A stretch of DNA of 64,000 nucleotides from Lysobacter gummosus (GTDB taxonomy: Bacteria > Pseudomonadota > Gammaproteobacteria > Xanthomonadales > Xanthomonadaceae). The notes below the pieces were generated by a model. The model did not search any database. It was not told the origin of the DNA and saw nothing but the letters and a program-made list of their open reading frames with translations. Below, piece by piece: positions 1 to 7,912 of the stretch; the first letter of the stretch is position 1, and every line of letters starts with the position of its first letter. The position numbers and the translations under genes are program-made. The DNA lies in contig NZ_CP011131.1 in the NCBI RefSeq assembly GCF_001442805.1, forward strand, positions 4,154,001-4,218,000. Reading direction: 5' to 3'.

Positions 1-3000
1 TGGGATCGGTGCTGACGGTGATCACGACCAGGTTCGGATCGATCGGCGCGCCGTTGAGCGTGTCGTTGGCGATCACGTTGGTCGTCACCGGCGTGTTCTG
101 CGGAGTCGTGCCCGTGCCGCCGGCGGGATCGTCGGTGGCGGTGATCGCGGGCGCGGTCACGGTGATGGTCACCGTGGCGGTATCGCAGTTGCTCGGGTTC
201 AGCACTTCGCACAGCTGGTAGGTCACGGTGTAGTTGCCGGCCGGCGTACCGGGCGCGACATCCACGCCGCCATCGGCCTTGACCGTCAGCGGGCCGTTGG
301 TGTTCGGGGTTACGGTGACGTCGGCGGGGTTGACGGTGCTGCCGCCGAGCGTGTCGTTGCCGAGCACGTTGACCACGTTGGTGCCGCCGGTGCCGCCGTT
401 GACCGGCGTGGCGACGATGTCATCGACCGCGTCGATGACCGCGGCGCTCACCGTCACGGTCACATCGGCCTGGGTGCAATTGGTCGGATCGGCGATTTCG
501 CAGATCTCGTAGCGCACCACGTAACTGCCCTGCGGCGTGCCCGGCGCGACGTTCACCGCGCCGGTGGCCGGATCGATGGTCACGTTCGGGCTGGTGGTCG
601 AGATTTGGCGAATGGTGACATTCGAAGTCGTCGCCGGCTGGCCGTTTAGCGTGTCGTTGACCAGCACGTTCGGCACGGCTACACCACCGGTTGCGCCGTT
701 GGCGACCGTACCCGAATCAGGGGCGGCCACGATCGGGCGCCGGGCAACCGGCGTGGTCACCTGCGAAGTGGACGGCGTCGGCGTTTCGGCCGAGGTCGCG
801 CTGGCGTCGTTGACGATGTTGCCGGCGGTGGCGTCGCCGGCCGTCACCGTGTACGTACCGGTGACCACGCAGGTCGCGCTGCCGCCGGTCGGCGCCATCG
901 CCGGGCAATTCCAGCTCGAAGGCGTGGTCTTGCTGTCGGTGATGACGACGTTGTTCAACGTCACGTTGCCGGTGTTGGTGGCGGTGATGGTGTAGGTCAG
1001 CACGTCGCCGATCGTCACCGTGCCGCTGCCGTCGTTGTCGGCGTTGGTGGGCTGGGACTTGAGCAGGGTCATCGCGGGGTTGCGCGTCGCGGTGATCGTG
1101 ACCGTATCGGTCGGCGAGGTCGTGGTGCCGTCGGTCGCGCTGGCGATGTTGGTAAGGCTGCCGGCATCCAGATCGGCCTGGGTCACGCTGTAGTTCGCCG
1201 TGCAGGTCAGGGTCTGGCTCGGGTTCAGGCCACCGGCCGGCAGCGCCGGACAGGTCACCGTGGTCTTGTCGTCGGTCACGCTGATCGGCGCGGTGATCGT
1301 AACGTTGCCGGTGTTGGTGACGATGTAGGTATACGGAATCACCTGGCCGACCGTCGCGTAGGTCGTCGCGGTCGAAGCCTTGTCGATCGTCATCGCACGC
1401 GTCTGCGTCGCGGTGATCGTGACCGTATCCGTCGGCGAGGTCGTGGTGCCGTCGGTCGCGCTGGCGATGTTGGTCAACGTGCCGGCGTTCAGATCGGCCT
1501 GGGTCACGCTGTAGTTCGCCGTGCAGGTCAGCGTCTGGGTCGGCGCCAGGCCGCCGGCCGGCAGCGCCGGACAGGTCACCGTGGTCTTGTCGTCGGTCAC
1601 GCTGATCGCGGCGGTGATCGTGACATTGCCGGTGTTGGTGACGATGTAGGTGTACGGGATCACCTGGCCGACCGTTGCGTAGGTCGTCGCGGTCGAAGCC
1701 TTGTCGATCGTCATCGCACGCGTCTGCGTCGCGGTGATCGTGACCGTATCCGTCGGCGAGGTCGTGGTGCCGTCGGTCGCGCTGGCGATGTTGGTCAACG
1801 TGCCGGCGTTCAGATCGGCCTGGGTCACGCTGTAGTTCGCCGTGCAGGTCAGCGTCTGGGTCGGCGCCAGGCCGCCGGCCGGCAGCGCCGGACAGGTCAC
1901 CGTGGTCTTGTCGTCGGTCACGCTGATCGCGGCGGTGATCGTGACATTGCCGGTGTTGGTGACGATGTAGGTGTACGGGATCACCTGGCCGACCGTTGCG
2001 TACGTCGTCGCGGTCGAAGCCTTGTCGATCGTCATCGCACGCGTCTGCGTCGCGGTGATCGTGACCGTATCCGTCGGCGAGGTCGTGGTGCCGTCGGTCG
2101 CGCTGGCGATGTTGGTCAACGTGCCGGCGTTCAGATCGGCCTGGGTCACGGTGTAGTTCGCCGTGCAGGTCAGCGTCTGGGTCGGCGCCAGGCCGCCGGC
2201 CGGCAGCGCCGGACAGGTCACGGTGGTCTTGTCGTCGGTCACGCTGATCGCGGCGGTGATCGTGACATTGCCGGTGTTGGTGACGATGTAGGTATACGGA
2301 ATCACCTGGCCGACCGTCGCGTACGTCGTCGCGGTCGAAGCCTTGTCGATCGTCATCGCACGCGTCTGCGTCGCGGTGATCGTGACCGTGTCCGTCGGCG
2401 AGGTCGTAGTGCCGTCGGTCGCGCTGGCGATGTTGGTCAACGTGCCGGCGTTCAGATCGGCCTGGGTCACGCTGTAGTTCGCCGTGCAGGTCAGCGTCTG
2501 GGTCGGCGCCAGGCCACCGGCCGGTAGCGCCGGACAGGTCACCGTGGTCTTGTCGTCGGTCACGCTGATCGCGGCGGTGATCGTGACATTGCCGGTGTTG
2601 GTGACGATGTAGGTGTACGGCAGGACATCGCCCACCGCGGCGTAGGTCGTCGCGGTCGAGGCCTTGTCGATCGTCATCGCACGCGTCTGCGTCGCGGTGA
2701 TCGTGACCGTATCCGTCGGCGAGGTCGTGGTGCCGTCGGTCGCGCTGGCGATGTTGGTCAACGTGCCGGCGTTCAGATCGGCCTGGGTCACGCTGTAGTT
2801 CGCCGTGCAGGTCAGCGTCTGGGTCGGCGCCAGGCCGCCGGCCGGCAGCGCCGGACAGGTCACGGTGGTCTTGTCGTCGGTCACGCTGATCGGCGCGGTG
2901 ATCGTAACGTTGCCGGTGTTGGTGACGATGTAGGTATACGGAATCACCTGGCCGACCGTCGCGTAGGTCGTCGCGGTCGAAGCCTTGTCGATCGTCATCG

Positions 3001-6000
3001 CACGCGTCTGCGTCGCGGTGATCGTGACCGTATCCGTCGGCGAGGTCGTGGTGCCGTCGGTCGCGCTGGCGATGTTGGTCAACGTGCCGGCGTTCAGATC
3101 GGCCTGGGTCACGCTGTAGTTCGCCGTGCAGGTCAGCGTCTGGGTCGGCGCCAGGCCACCGGCCGGCAGCGCCGGACAGGTCACGGTGGTCTTGTCGTCG
3201 GTCACGCTGATCGGCGCGGTGATCGTAACGTTGCCGGTGTTGGTGACGATGTAGGTATACGGAATCACCTGGCCGACCGTCGCGTAGGTCGTCGCGGTCG
3301 AAGCCTTGTCGATCGTCATCGCACGCGTCTGCGTCGCGGTGATCGTGACCGTATCCGTCGGCGAAGTCGTAGTGCCGTCGGTCGCGCTGGCGATGTTGGT
3401 CAACGTGCCGGCGTTCAGATCGGCCTGGGTCACGGTGTAGTTCGCCGTGCAGGTCAACGTCTGGGTCGGCGCCAGACCACCGGCCGGCAGCGCCGGGCAG
3501 GTCACCGTGGTCTTGTCGTCGGTCACGCTGATCGCGGCGGTGATCGTGACATTGCCGGTGTTGGTGACGATGTAGGTGTACGGCAGGACATCGCCCACCG
3601 CGGCGTAGGTCGTCGCGGTCGAGGCCTTGTCGATCGTCATCGCACGCGTCTGCGTGGCATTGAGTGTGACGCTGTCGGTAAGGGACTGCACCGCGCCCGA
3701 GCTCGCGCTGGCGATATTGATCAACGTGCCGGCGTTCAGATCCGCCTGGGTGACGGTATAGGTGGAGTTACACGTCAGGCTTTGAGTCGGCGGCAAACCG
3801 CCGGGCGGCAGCGCCGGACAGGTCACCGTGGTCTTATCGTCGGCGACTGTGATCGCCGTCGTGAGGGTCACGTTGCCGGTATTGGTGACGATGTAGGTGT
3901 ACGGGATCACCTGACCGACCGTGGCGTACGTCGTTGCGGTCGAGGCCTTGTCGATCGCCAGGCCCGGATTCTGCGTCGCGTTCACCGTGACGGTGTCGGT
4001 CGGCGAAGTCGTAGTGCCATCAGTCGCACTGGCGATATTGACGACGCTACCGGCATCCAGATCGGCCTGAGTCACGGTGTAACTGGCCGTGCAGGTCAGC
4101 GTCTGAGTCGGCGCCAAGCCCCCGGCCGGCAGCGCCGGACAGGTCACCGTGGTCTTGTCGTCGGTCACGTTGATCGCTGCGGTGATCGTGACATTACCGG
4201 TGTTGGTGACCAAGTAGGTGTAATTCAGCGAGTCGCCTACCGCGGCGTAGCCGGTCGACGTCGTGTTCTTGTCGATCGTCATCGCACGCGTCTGCGTCGC
4301 GGTGATCGTGACCGTATCCGTCGGCGAGGTCGTAGTGCCGTCGGTCGCGCTGGCGATGTTGGTCAACGTGCCGGCGTTCAGATCGGCCTGGGTCACGGTG
4401 TAATTCGCCGTGCAGGTCAGCGTCTGGGTCGGCGCCAGGCCGCCGGCCGGCAGCGCCGGACAGGTCACGGTGGTCTTGTCGTCGGTCACGCTGATCGCGG
4501 CGGTGATCGTGACATTGCCGGTGTTGGTGACGATGTAGGTATACGGAATCACCTGGCCGACCGTCGCGTACGTCGTCGCGGTCGAAGCCTTGTCGATCGT
4601 CATCGCACGCGTCTGCGTCGCGGTGATCGTGACCGTGTCCGTCGGCGAGGTCGTAGTGCCGTCGGTCGCGCTGGCGATGTTGGTCAACGTGCCGGCGTTC
4701 AGATCGGCCTGGGTCACGGTGTAATTCGCCGTGCAGGTCAGCGTCTGGGTCGGCGCCAGGCCGCCGGCCGGCAGCGCCGGACAGGTCACGGTGGTCTTGT
4801 CGTCGGTCACGCTGATCGGCGCGGTGATCGTAACGTTGCCGGTGTTGGTGACGATGTAGGTATACGGAATCACCTGGCCGACCGTCGCGTAGGTCGTCGC
4901 GGTCGAAGCCTTGTCGATCGTCATCGCACGCGTCTGCGTCGCGGTGATCGTGACCGTGTCCGTCGGCGAGGTCGTAGTGCCGTCGGTCGCGCTGGCGATG
5001 TTGGTCAACGTGCCGGCGTTCAGATCGGCCTGGGTCACGGTGTAGTTCGCCGTGCAGGTCAACGTCTGAGTCGGCGCCAGACCACCGGCCGGCAGCGCCG
5101 GACAGGTCACCGTGGTCTTGTCGTCGGTCACGCTGATCGCGGCGGTGATCGTGACATTGCCGGTGTTGGTGACGATGTAGGTGTACGGGATCACCTGGCC
5201 GACCGTTGCGTACGTCGTCGCGGTCGAAGCCTTGTCGATCGTCATCGCACGCGTCTGCGTCGCGGTGATCGTGACCGTATCCGTCGGCGAGGTCGTGGTG
5301 CCGTCGGTCGCGCTGGCGATGTTGGTCAACGTGCCGGCGTTCAGATCGGCCTGGGTCACGGTGTAGTTCGCCGTGCAGGTCAGCGTCTGGGTCGGCGCCA
5401 GGCCGCCGGCCGGCAGCGCCGGACAGGTCACGGTGGTCTTGTCGTCGGTCACGCTGATCGCGGCGGTGATCGTGACATTGCCGGTGTTGGTGACGATGTA
5501 GGTATACGGAATCACCTGGCCGACCGTCGCGTACGTCGTCGCGGTCGAAGCCTTGTCGATCGTCATCGCACGCGTCTGCGTCGCGGTGATCGTGACCGTG
5601 TCCGTCGGCGAGGTCGTAGTGCCGTCGGTCGCGCTGGCGATGTTGGTCAACGTGCCGGCGTTCAGATCGGCCTGGGTCACGCTGTAGTTCGCCGTGCAGG
5701 TCAGCGTCTGGGTCGGCGCTAGGCCACCGGCCGGTAGCGCCGGACAGGTCACCGTGGTCTTGTCGTCGGTCACGCTGATCGGCGCGGTGATCGTAACGTT
5801 GCCGGTGTTGGTAACGATGTAGGTATACGGAATCACCTGGCCGACCGTCGCGTACGTGGTCGCGGTCGAAGCCTTGTCGATCGTCATCGCACGCGTCTGC
5901 GTCGCGGTGATCGTGACCGTGTCCGTCGGCGAGGTCGTAGTGCCGTCGGTCGCGCTGGCGATGTTGGTCAACGTGCCGGCGTTCAGATCGGCCTGGGTCA

Positions 6001-7912
6001 CGGTGTAGTTCGCCGTGCAGGTCAGCGTCTGGGTCGGCGCCAGACCACCGGCCGGCAGCGCCGGACAGGTCACCGTGGTCTTGTCGTCGGTCACGCTGAT
6101 CGCGGCGGTGATCGTGACATTGCCGGTGTTGGTGACGATGTAGGTGTACGGCAGGACATCGCCCACCGCGGCGTAGGTCGTCGCGGTCGAGGCCTTGTCG
6201 ATCGTCATCGCACGCGTCTGCGTCGCGGTGATCGTGACCGTATCCGTCGGCGAGGTCGTGGTGCCGTCGGTCGCGCTGGCGATGTTGGTCAACGTGCCGG
6301 CGTTCAGATCGGCCTGGGTCACGCTGTAGTTCGCCGTGCAGGTCAGCGTCTGGGTCGGCGCCAGGCCGCCGGCCGGCAGCGCCGGACAGGTCACCGTGGT
6401 CTTGTCGTCGGTCACGCTGATCGGCGCGGTGATCGTGACATTGCCGGTGTTGGTGACGATGTAGGTGTACGGGATCACCTGACCAACCGTCGCGTACGTC
6501 GTCGCGGTTGAGGCCTTGTCGATCGTCATCGCAGGCGCAGCCGCGATCGTTACCGTATTGGTATCGGTCGCATTCGGCAATGTGCCGCTCGTCGGCGTGC
6601 CGCTCGCGGTCGCGGTATTGACGACCGAACCAGCATTCACCTCAGCCTGCGTGACCGTATAGACGTTTCCGGTCGCGGTGCAGCTGGCGGTCGCGGACGG
6701 CGCCAACGTGGCGATAGTGCACGTCAGCGAAGGCAGCTTCGGATCGGTCACGGTGATGCTGTTGATCGTGACGTTACCGGTGTTGGTGACGCTGAAGGTG
6801 TAGGTCACCGTGTCGCCGGCGCGAGTCGGCGTGGAAGTGGTGGCCTTGTCCAGAGTCCAGCTCGGGTTAGACACCGGCGTCGGCGTCGCCGTCGCGGTGT
6901 TGTTGCCGGCGACCGGATCGTTGGTGGTCGCGCTCACCGTGGCGCTGTTGAGATAAGGCCCGGTTTCCAGAACACGGGCGACCAACGTCAGGGTCGCGCT
7001 GGCGTTATGCGCAAGCGCGCCAATCGTCCAAACGCCGCTGCCGTTGTTATAGGTGCCCACGCTTGGAGTGGCGGAAACGAAGGTATAGCCGGCCGGCAAC
7101 ACATCGTTGACGACCACGCCGGCCGCATCGGACGGGCCGATGTTGTTGTTGACGGTCACCGTGAAGGTGACGTTGGTTCCAATCGCGGGGTTGGTCGGCA
7201 ACACCGTCTTGGTGATGGCCAGATCCGCGACCGGTGTAACCGTATCGACATCGGTAACCGTGCCGGTCGGCGTCGGATCGGTGGTGTTGGCCGGCAAGGT
7301 CGCGGTGACCGCGTTGGTCACGCTGCCGCTGGTCGCGGTGACATTGGCGTTGACGGTGAACGTCAGCTCGCCGCCCGAGGGCAGATTCGCGATAGTCAAA
7401 CCGCTCTCGAAGTTGGCCACGGTCACGACCGGGCAAACCGCAGTGCCCGCACTGACCAGGCAGCTCACAGCGGTCTTGGTCAGGCCCACAGCAACCGGAT
7501 CGGTGATGATCGTGCCGTTGGCCGCGCTCGGGCCGTTGTTGCGCAACACGATCGTATATATGGTCGAACCGCCGGCGGTGACGCTGGTCACGCCGTCGGT
7601 CTTGGTCAGTACCAGATCGGCCACCGCCGCCAACGTATTCGAATCGGTAGCCGAACAAGCCCCGGTCCCCGCATTGAACGTACCGCCGTTGGCCGTACAC
7701 GCCGTATCGACGTTGGTCACGTTGGCCGGCGGCGTGATGGTCGCGGTGTTGTTCAGCGGGTTGGCGAACTGCGCCATCGCCGGCAGGCCGGCCAGGGTCA
7801 GCACGGCTGCAAGCAGCACACGCACTCCGGTTCGAGCAATGCGCGATCCAGCACGGACGTCGCGGTGGACGGACGATTGGCTGGCCGGAGTACGAGTAGT
7901 GGCGATTTTCAT
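1..7912 (-). CDS. Giant secreted repeat protein (DUF11/DUF7507-type), C-terminus beyond window
   Basis: An uninterrupted minus-strand frame starts at ATG 7912 and is still open at base 2, giving 2637 visible residues. A stop codon sits two codons upstream, so this is the first start; no clear Shine-Dalgarno is seen. Residues 1-47 form a long signal peptide with a hydrophobic core (RVLLAAVLTLAGLP) ending in AMA. Residues about 95-345 hold two DUF11-like domains. Residues about 350-461 are a diverged repeat. Residues 462-2280 are 17 tandem 107-residue repeats beginning MTIDKAS, with ATVGQVIPYTYIVTNTGN near the start and a cysteine pair (TVTCPAL / TLTCTANY) that could form one disulfide per repeat. 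Residue 2281 begins another DUF11-like unit, followed by Ig/cadherin-like modules with NVLVNDTLNG motifs. A surface or secreted stalk or adhesin is likely (inference). No secretion signal or anchor is visible because the C-terminus is missing. Confidence 0.85.
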   Translation of the reverse strand, partial: MKIATTRTPASQSSVHRDVRAGSRIARTGVRVLLAAVLTLAGLPAMAQFANPLNNTATITPPANVTNVDTACTANGGTFNAGTGACSATDSNTLAAVADLVLTKTDGVTSVTAGGSTIYTIVLRNNGPSAANGTIITDPVAVGLTKTAVSCLVSAGTAVCPVVTVANFESGLTIANLPSGGELTFTVNANVTATSGSVTNAVTATLPANTTDPTPTGTVTDVDTVTPVADLAITKTVLPTNPAIGTNVTFTVTVNNNIGPSDAAGVVVNDVLPAGYTFVSATPSVGTYNNGSGVWTIGALAHNASATLTLVARVLETGPYLNSATVSATTNDPVAGNNTATATPTPVSNPSWTLDKATTSTPTRAGDTVTYTFSVTNTGNVTINSITVTDPKLPSLTCTIATLAPSATASCTATGNVYTVTQAEVNAGSVVNTATASGTPTSGTLPNATDTNTVTIAAAPAMTIDKASTATTYATVGQVIPYTYIVTNTGNVTITAPISVTDDKTTVTCPALPAGGLAPTQTLTCTANYSVTQADLNAGTLTNIASATDGTTTSPTDTVTITATQTRAMTIDKASTATTYAAVGDVLPYTYIVTNTGNVTITAAISVTDDKTTVTCPALPAGGLAPTQTLTCTANYTVTQADLNAGTLTNIASATDGTTTSPTDTVTITATQTRAMTIDKASTATTYATVGQVIPYTYIVTNTGNVTITAPISVTDDKTTVTCPALPAGGLAPTQTLTCTANYSVTQADLNAGTLTNIASATDGTTTSPTDTVTITATQTRAMTIDKASTATTYATVGQVIPYTYIVTNTGNVTITAAISVTDDKTTVTCPALPAGGLAPTQTLTCTANYTVTQADLNAGTLTNIASATDGTTTSPTDTVTITATQTRAMTIDKASTATTYATVGQVIPYTYIVTNTGNVTITAAISVTDDKTTVTCPALPAGGLAPTQTLTCTANYTVTQADLNAGTLTNIASATDGTTTSPTDTVTITATQTRAMTIDKASTATTYATVGQVIPYTYIVTNTGNVTITAPISVTDDKTTVTCPALPAGGLAPTQTLTCTANYTVTQADLNAGTLTNIASATDGTTTSPTDTVTITATQTRAMTIDKASTATTYATVGQVIPYTYIVTNTGNVTITAAISVTDDKTTVTCPALPAGGLAPTQTLTCTANYTVTQADLNAGTLTNIASATDGTTTSPTDTVTITATQTRAMTIDKNTTSTGYAAVGDSLNYTYLVTNTGNVTITAAINVTDDKTTVTCPALPAGGLAPTQTLTCTASYTVTQADLDAGSVVNIASATDGTTTSPTDTVTVNATQNPGLAIDKASTATTYATVGQVIPYTYIVTNTGNVTLTTAITVADDKTTVTCPALPPGGLPPTQSLTCNSTYTVTQADLNAGTLINIASASSGAVQSLTDSVTLNATQTRAMTIDKASTATTYAAVGDVLPYTYIVTNTGNVTITAAISVTDDKTTVTCPALPAGGLAPTQTLTCTANYTVTQADLNAGTLTNIASATDGTTTSPTDTVTITATQTRAMTIDKASTATTYATVGQVIPYTYIVTNTGNVTITAPISVTDDKTTVTCPALPAGGLAPTQTLTCTANYSVTQADLNAGTLTNIASATDGTTTSPTDTVTITATQTRAMTIDKASTATTYATVGQVIPYTYIVTNTGNVTITAPISVTDDKTTVTCPALPAGGLAPTQTLTCTANYSVTQADLNAGTLTNIASATDGTTTSPTDTVTITATQTRAMTIDKASTATTYAAVGDVLPYTYIVTNTGNVTITAAISVTDDKTTVTCPALPAGGLAPTQTLTCTANYSVTQADLNAGTLTNIASATDGTTTSPTDTVTITATQTRAMTIDKASTATTYATVGQVIPYTYIVTNTGNVTITAAISVTDDKTTVTCPALPAGGLAPTQTLTCTANYTVTQADLNAGTLTNIASATDGTTTSPTDTVTITATQTRAMTIDKASTATTYATVGQVIPYTYIVTNTGNVTITAAISVTDDKTTVTCPALPAGGLAPTQTLTCTANYSVTQADLNAGTLTNIASATDGTTTSPTDTVTITATQTRAMTIDKASTATTYATVGQVIPYTYIVTNTGNVTITAAISVTDDKTTVTCPALPAGGLAPTQTLTCTANYSVTQADLNAGTLTNIASATDGTTTSPTDTVTITATQTRAMTIDKASTATTYATVGQVIPYTYIVTNTGNVTITAPISVTDDKTTVTCPALPAGGLNPSQTLTCTANYSVTQADLDAGSLTNIASATDGTTTSPTDTVTITATRNPAMTLLKSQPTNADNDGSGTVTIGDVLTYTITATNTGNVTLNNVVITDSKTTPSSWNCPAMAPTGGSATCVVTGTYTVTAGDATAGNIVNDASATSAETPTPSTSQVTTPVARRPIVAAPDSGTVANGATGGVAVPNVLVNDTLNGQPATTSNVTIRQISTTSPNVTIDPATGAVNVAPGTPQGSYVVRYEICEIADPTNCTQADVTVTVSAAVIDAVDDIVATPVNGGTGGTNVVNVLGNDTLGGSTVNPADVTVTPNTNGPLTVKADGGVDVAPGTPAGNYTVTYQLCEVLNPSNCDTATVTITVTAPAITATDDPAGGTGTTPQNTPVTTNVIANDTLNGAPIDPNLVVITVSTDP
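1070..6529 (-). repeat. 17 x 321-bp in-frame tandem repeat array
   Basis: The codon for the first Met of each unit recurs exactly every 321 bp: 6527, 6206, 5885, 5564, 5243, 4922, 4601, 4280, 3959 (Met replaced), 3638, 3317, 2996, 2675, 2354, 2033, 1712, 1391 and 1070. Most units differ at only a few bases. Variation is mosaic: ATVGQVIPYT versus AAVGDVLPYT, and ITAAISV versus ITAPISV, are shuffled between units. Units 3638-4280 are clearly more diverged. The array lies inside the giant gene and never breaks the frame. It is coding repeat, not CRISPR. Confidence 0.95.

Follow-up and report, generated by a model that had tools for sequence, protein, structure and literature searches.

To our knowledge, it remains unclear how the very long, Sec-type fibres of Gram-negative DUF11/CLIPPER adhesins pass the outer membrane and become anchored. 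In intimin and invasin, which are inverse autotransporters (type Ve) and carry LysM, an Ig-like rod, an outer-membrane barrel and a peptidoglycan-binding domain work together. The ZirTS pathway of Salmonella has barrel and passenger as separate proteins, and the passenger is released, while the TpgA of trimeric autotransporters is a separate, whole OmpA-type protein whose OmpA domain binds peptidoglycan and gives stability to a large surface adhesin. A CLIPPER-stalk fibrillar adhesin with an OmpA-like anchor has been published for Acinetobacter silvestris (B9T28_05395), where head (CshA-like), stalk and anchor form one chain of 2,129 aa (PMC12617251). The excerpts of the same paper rename DUF7507 as CLIPPER_2, a seven-stranded relative of the Ig-like DUF11 and a frequent tandem domain of surface polypeptides, and assign to it a Lys-Asp-Asn triad (K72-D112-N152) for an intramolecular isopeptide bond. 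Because this adhesin is in print, as far as these excerpts describe it, the general plan of a CLIPPER stalk with an OmpA-like anchor is not new.

Here, we describe a locus of the soil bacterium Lysobacter gummosus in which a giant rod protein (gene 1) is encoded directly upstream of a large barrel protein (gene 2). Its OmpA anchor is apparently cut in two, one part per protein, which suggests an unusual anchoring of a giant surface fibre. The Acinetobacter adhesin, in the excerpts of its description, has one chain, a CshA-like head and no named partner, whereas in the Lysobacter rod the OmpA domain is incomplete, its remainder lies in the co-encoded barrel protein and no head was found. Compared with intimin and invasin, order and polarity are reversed (rod N-terminal, barrel C-terminal or separate), OmpA takes the place of LysM, two chains are involved and the barrel is likely larger. 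Unlike the released passenger of ZirTS, which we compare by description only, the Lysobacter rod bears an anchor at its C-terminus. The TpgA NCBIfam model appears as a weak match among those listed; in contrast to TpgA, the Lysobacter OmpA domain is itself divided between rod and barrel. Among the literature matches listed, all open-licence papers and thus weak evidence of absence, no description of a barrel partner or of an OmpA domain divided over two chains was found.

The rod protein

The window, i.e. the whole stretch of 64,000 nucleotides that was analysed, covers positions 4,154,001-4,218,000 of a host genome that consists of one contig of 6.06 Mb. Gene 1 is a minus-strand frame that spans window positions 2-7912 (2,637 aa) and is open at the window edge. 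A preliminary description of this DNA had reported a frame of more than 2600 residues leaving the window, and had named a stop or frameshift just beyond the edge as the finding that would speak against it; the genome sequence has neither there, and the frame runs on to a total of 3,362 aa, ending 2,177 bases left of window position 1 (Table 1). The signal peptide noted earlier corresponds to a signal-peptide-like start, judged by eye and by hydropathy, and the DUF11-like domains and Ig-like modules to Pfam DUF11 and Big_9 matches. The order along the protein is DUF11 (three Pfam stretches over the whole protein, the best at residues 230-343), DUF7507, Big_9, a conserved C-terminal region and an OmpA-like domain. 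The C-terminal anchor that was expected on leftward extension thus exists as an OmpA-like domain, with the reservation that it is incomplete and apparently finished by gene 2. Of the features by which fibrillar adhesins are recognised, stalk repeats and an anchor are present, the latter in two pieces. No adhesive head domain was matched by Pfam or NCBIfam at E <= 0.01, no sigma-70-like promoter was found upstream of the gene, and a DNA pattern search within the window added nothing.

Table 1. Features of the rod and barrel genes (window positions, or genome positions and protein residues where stated)
Feature	Position	Strand	Description and basis
Gene 1, part in window	1..7912	-	2,637 of 3,362 aa
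Signal-peptide-like N-terminus, gene 1 residues 1-47	7772..7912	-	By eye and hydropathy peak; cut likely after AMA
DUF11 (CLIPPER) region, gene 1 residues ~95-343	6884..7630	-	Pfam; left limit by eye
Array of 17 x 107-aa DUF7507 (CLIPPER_2) units, gene 1 residues 461-2279	1076..6532	-	TRF, Pfam, unit alignment
One further DUF7507-like unit and Big_9 Ig-like domains (in-window part)	1..1075	-	Pfam, unit comparison, model
Gene 1, remainder left of window	genome 4151824-4154000	-	Conserved C-terminal region and incomplete OmpA-like domain
Gene 1 OmpA-like match	residues 3272-3333	-	Pfam OmpA 1-64 of 98
Gene 2	genome 4147986-4151819	-	1,277 aa; starts 4 bases past gene 1 stop
End of OmpA domain in gene 2	about residues 95-128	-	Near N-terminus, after signal peptide

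Among relatives, the length of gene 1 ranges from 704 to 4,751 aa in the 35 frames that are closed at their 5′ end, the shortest of which may include broken copies, and is greater in open frames. A structure model covering the C-terminal 1,185 aa of gene 1 from a sister genome is of modest confidence (mean pLDDT 58), with beta-sandwich domains at a pLDDT of about 55-85 over model residues 220-730 and a final helix-strand-helix-strand. Foldseek matches, which here and for gene 2 serve for fold class only, were mostly cadherins among those listed, along with S-layer proteins, Ig-domain proteins and some unrelated proteins of large complexes.

A homogenised array of CLIPPER_2 units

TRF detects a 321-bp unit in 17.0 copies at positions 1084-6537, with 92% matches and 0% indels, and in the protein register all 17 units measure exactly 107 aa, just as first described. 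This exact register, and the same count in two other Lysobacter genomes, exclude a chance or artefactual repeat. The earlier characterisation of 17 near-identical units is right in number and for 15 of the 17 (mean pairwise identity 93% in protein and 92% in DNA); units 8 and 9 are divergent, bringing the minimum pairwise amino acid identity down to 65%. Identical pairs are uncommon, with 14 of 136 in protein and a single one (1/136) in DNA.

The PF24346/DUF7507 profile scores 1356.9 bits against a cut-off of 27 and covers 19 stretches of gene 1 (Pfam). Each of the 17 units has the single cysteine pair previously noted (positions 49 and 65), and each also carries K6, D42/43 and N83, whose spacing is near that of the published triad, the positions being paired by spacing alone. 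Since the cysteine pair and the triad counterparts occur in 17/17 units, every unit may hold two covalent locks, a predicted disulfide and a predicted isopeptide bond. Describing the rod as disulfide-pinned is therefore plausible and incomplete at the same time. The long rod of Ig-like units is right by family, while our own model of the last two repeats, taken from the sister genome, is poor (pLDDT mostly <50) and lends no support to the Ig fold, which accordingly rests on family. As the DUF7507/CLIPPER_2 family and its triad spacing are in print (in the excerpts of PMC12617251), the repeat itself is an already known kind of domain.

Two other Lysobacter loci (L059 and L061) also have 17 units at a spacing of 107, which led us to reject the idea of an array in rapid flux. 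Units 8 and 9 are the weakest in L061, as they are in the window's protein; L059 has its weakest unit at 9, closely followed by unit 8. Because units resemble each other more within a genome (0.93, 0.88 and 0.88) than between genomes (0.82 and 0.78) while the count of 17 is kept, the array seems to be homogenised at a fixed unit number. The six others of the eight relatives compared have no unit matching this profile, and in the two of these that were scanned with Pfam (L060 and L055) the rod is mostly DUF11. A related gene 1 C-terminus follows the rod in all relatives compared.

A predicted outer-membrane barrel as partner

Gene 2 has a signal-peptide-like start and no Pfam family above cut-off. 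Its predicted structure is poor (mean pLDDT 44, pTM 0.34), with many strands in residues 621-1193. A Foldseek search of this model against the PDB gave 112 matches at E <= 0.001, and all 50 of those listed are outer-membrane proteins, among them TonB-dependent receptors, LptD, the type 9 translocon and the Mtr complex. Sequence searches in the PDB gave nothing useful. The protein ends in Y or F, a C-terminal barrel signal, in 46 of 49 aligned gene 2 rows, the exceptions being L003 (cut) and L043 and L045 (disrupted end). We take gene 2 to encode a large outer-membrane barrel, predicted from a model too poor for topology, strand number or pore.

Neither Pfam nor NCBIfam matches gene 2 to a known exporter family, and no POTRA domain or Omp85 barrel is matched at E <= 0.01. 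Membership of two-partner secretion (TpsB/Omp85) was rejected for this lack of a family match. Classical and inverse autotransporters were rejected as well, as Lysobacter has two frames and neither gene 1 nor gene 2 contains such a barrel or passenger family.

The closest named relative found is Lysobacter sp. ISL-50, with a gene 2 that is 100% identical after rounding. Matches to gene 2 occur in 27 of 60 genomes near the window's (its own included), in 50 of 369 of the class and in 45 of 299 of the phylum, the class and phylum counts including distant, partial matches. In the adjoining stretch on the left (L002, genome 4134001-4154000), a giant RHS-repeat frame with putative Ig (He_PIG) domains, at least 3,856 aa long, was observed about 8.4-20.0 kb left of the window start (L002:3-11573, plus strand), and an integrase/transposase-type frame (L002:12280-13269) lies between it and gene 2.

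An OmpA domain divided over two genes

Neither polypeptide of the window's pair contains a complete PF00691 domain. The gene 1 tail alone matches Pfam OmpA over positions 1-65 of 98 (46.5 bits) and the gene 2 head alone has no Pfam OmpA match, yet the tail joined to the head matches over the full 1-98/98 with 52.3 bits; when the tail is joined to a control stretch of gene 2 instead, the match stays at 1-64/98 and 45.6 bits. The same picture emerges from a profile-profile comparison with 15 complete OmpA domains taken from relatives. Here, gene 2 residues 80-140 (12 rows) align to columns 90-118 of 121 with a probability of 80 and an E-value of 1.4e-5, where the best of 36 control windows reached 4.0 and the best of 40 column shuffles 2.9, and the gene 1 tail occupies columns 9-82 with a probability of 98.

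Among relatives, the last-strand motif of OmpA is present in none of 41 gene 1 tails and in 42 of 49 gene 2 rows, and the Asp and Arg of the peptidoglycan loop, which we take from OmpA structures to act in peptidoglycan binding, are kept in all 41 tails. (The 41 tails exclude L039, which has no OmpA part, the frame-shifted L051, and L002 and L054 as duplicates or near-duplicates; the 49 rows exclude the duplicates L081, L083 and L084 as well as L117-L136, and include L003, part of L002.) Most of the seven rows without the motif are damaged or truncated: L044 and L046 are frame-shifted pieces, L049 and L086 are cut by contig ends, L085 begins at a contig start and has no motif in its remainder, and L087 is frame-shifted, its N-terminus, read separately, having no motif. 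The seventh, L039, is an intact further copy of the pair in another Lysobacter genome (G018). Its gene 1 stops before the OmpA part and its gene 2 leads from the signal peptide straight into the next domain, so that both OmpA parts are gone together in this single case.

The signal is weaker in single sequences, and the two clades of the family differ. An OmpA-tail score above 5 bits is reached by just 18 of 42 gene 2 sequences, and the other 24, mostly of a paralogous clade, score <= 3.3 bits, where shuffled sequences reach 2.3 at most. The OmpA match extends to model position 99-104 of 121 in 10 tails, all from the paralogous clade, out of 43 gene 1 tails (a count that excludes L039 and L051 and includes L002 and L003, which are one gene), and in the gene 1 of L047 Pfam OmpA reaches 79/98. 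Joining tail and head raises the score in 27 of 40 pairs and brings no gain in 13. Judged from these sequence comparisons, the window's own clade offers good support for an OmpA domain that is divided between gene 1 and gene 2. The clean split is limited to this clade, because the parts of the paralogous clade overlap and joining gains nothing in 13 of 40 pairs; there, the split is less clean, and a strand may be duplicated.

Linkage and descent of the pair

Our survey covered 72 loci with gene 2, representing 68 distinct places (four were fetched twice). In 63 of the 68, the C-terminal region of gene 1 either shares a frame with gene 2 or lies no more than 2.6 kb upstream of it on its strand. 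Seven of these share one frame and 56 have it in another frame, which is within 40 bases in 44 cases; the remaining 12 have gaps of 177-2,528 bases, nine with a longer gene 2 N-terminus and three being disturbed or OmpA-less copies. At the five places without an upstream gene 1 region, the locus reaches just 0-1,211 bases upstream of gene 2, and at one, L087 (Hydromonas), gene 1 is found downstream. Seen from gene 1, at least 28 places hold its specific C-terminal region, and among the matches listed 25 adjoin gene 2, contig ends limit the view at two, and the last is a true orphan (G359:C47), a paralogue whose genome carries a complete pair at another site. Both genes diverge in parallel (r = 0.96 over 38 gene pairs).

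Several genomes hold more than one copy. In the window's genome, a second pair was seen at L034:4880-19599 (L034 being genome 5622000-5641999), with a gene 1 of 3,650 aa and a gene 2 of 1,257 aa, and another Lysobacter genome (G005; L043, L044, L045, L046, L052 and L071) has at least six copies, several of them truncated or frame-shifted. In Lysobacter sp. Root690 (L056/L084), gene 2 is intact and gene 1 is spread over several frames, by decay or by assembly errors in the repeats.

The rod, its C-terminal region and the barrel also occur together in single frames (L117, L119, L129-L133 and the distant L135). Long frames in L039 and L040 that seemed to fuse gene 2 to upstream sequence are frame overlaps and were rejected as fusions. 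Six of the single frames (L129-L133 and L135) have a complete OmpA domain between rod and barrel. L117 and L119 have a signal-peptide-like stretch inside the OmpA region; in L117, the segment that follows this stretch aligns to OmpA columns 74-118 (13.8 bits), and the segment that precedes it scores only 0.8 bits. Together with L118 (G170), L117 forms one open frame of 11,777 aa with rod, OmpA region and barrel; at its left end, neither a start nor a signal peptide was recognised. Other arrangements place the whole domain in one gene of a pair: in gene 1 at the Hydromonas locus L087 (Pfam 1-93/98, with none in gene 2), and in gene 2 in eight of nine members of another branch with a separate gene 2 (L122-L128, L134 and L136). 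The ninth, L125, has no OmpA match in either frame, and the fused L119 has none in the frames searched, so the OmpA domain can, by these sequences, be lost.

In a tree of 61 gene 2 sequences, the 40 rows labelled as split fall on one side of a branch with an SH-aLRT of 100, where this label was assigned by default and includes L039 (both parts lost) and L121 (unread), and where L125 wrongly carries the whole-OmpA label. The tree fits one origin of the split form; as its branches are long, the deeper order is unsure. Many of the phylum's small genomes also have distant barrel-like matches (family f210), at model positions of about 290-700 only and within frames of ~760-2,400 aa, and these are possibly a further single-chain branch of the family.

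A model for assembly and its alternatives

We consider it probable that gene 1 and gene 2 together encode a wall- and barrel-anchored, two-piece fibrillar surface rod with an anchor formed from two chains. Both chains would enter the periplasm via Sec, going by their signal-peptide-like starts, and the gene 2 product would form a large beta-barrel in the outer membrane. Most simply by passage through or beside this barrel, the rod would be displayed outside, where it may serve in adhesion or contact, with its C-terminus remaining in the periplasm. There, the N-terminal segment of the barrel protein would complete, in trans, the unfinished OmpA fold in which the rod ends. Rod and barrel would thereby be locked together, and peptidoglycan gripped, solely in the presence of both partners. 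In this model, the 17 CLIPPER_2 units would act as a stiff spacer, locked by disulfides and probably by isopeptide bonds.

Some of the same observations could be explained if the OmpA piece of gene 2 were a functionless vestige of an ancestral fused gene or another arrangement, with the rod anchored by its own partial OmpA domain and the barrel acting as a porin or receptor. The weak scores of single sequences, the overlapping parts in the paralogous clade and the pairs that gain nothing from joining all agree with this, and a fusion or fission did happen, since single-frame relatives exist. We nevertheless hold a vestige to be unlikely: the last-strand motif of gene 2 (42/49 rows) is kept in two paralogous clades and down to about 53% identity, the peptidoglycan-loop residues of gene 1 are invariant (41/41), and L039 lacks both parts, which would be expected of two pieces with a joint function. 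Another system might also release or display the rod, for example type II secretion, by which Lysobacter exports many enzymes, and the barrel, which matches no known exporter family, would then serve another purpose. The tight linkage of the two genes, their parallel divergence and the natural single frames that include the barrel speak against this, and we give it very little credence.

Alternatively, the rod could stay in the periplasm as a long tether or scaffold between the outer membrane and the cell wall, a reading in line with its signal-peptide-like N-terminus and its periplasmic-type OmpA domain at the C-terminus. The lengths found for gene 1, from 704 to 4,751 aa, would far exceed the width of the periplasm if extended, and an outer-membrane barrel is encoded beside the rod in 63 of 68 places. 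Moreover, the excerpts of PMC12617251 describe DUF11 and DUF7507 as domains that build the stalks of surface proteins, and on balance we think a periplasmic rod distinctly improbable.

Implications

The conserved barrel partner, the natural single-frame versions, the anchor that is cut at the boundary of rod and barrel, and the copy that has lost both OmpA parts lead to a specific assembly model for a giant surface fibre. In its fullest form, which we put forward tentatively and with rather less confidence than an even chance would warrant, a peptidoglycan-binding OmpA domain would be built in trans from two secreted chains and would lock a giant rod, stabilised by isopeptide bonds and disulfides, to the large barrel that displays it, as a mirror image of intimin, in a family whose members, across Pseudomonadota, would include single chains as well as split pairs. 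Should the OmpA fold require both chains, the cell envelope would contain a natural split-domain lock, which might also find use as a tool for surface display.
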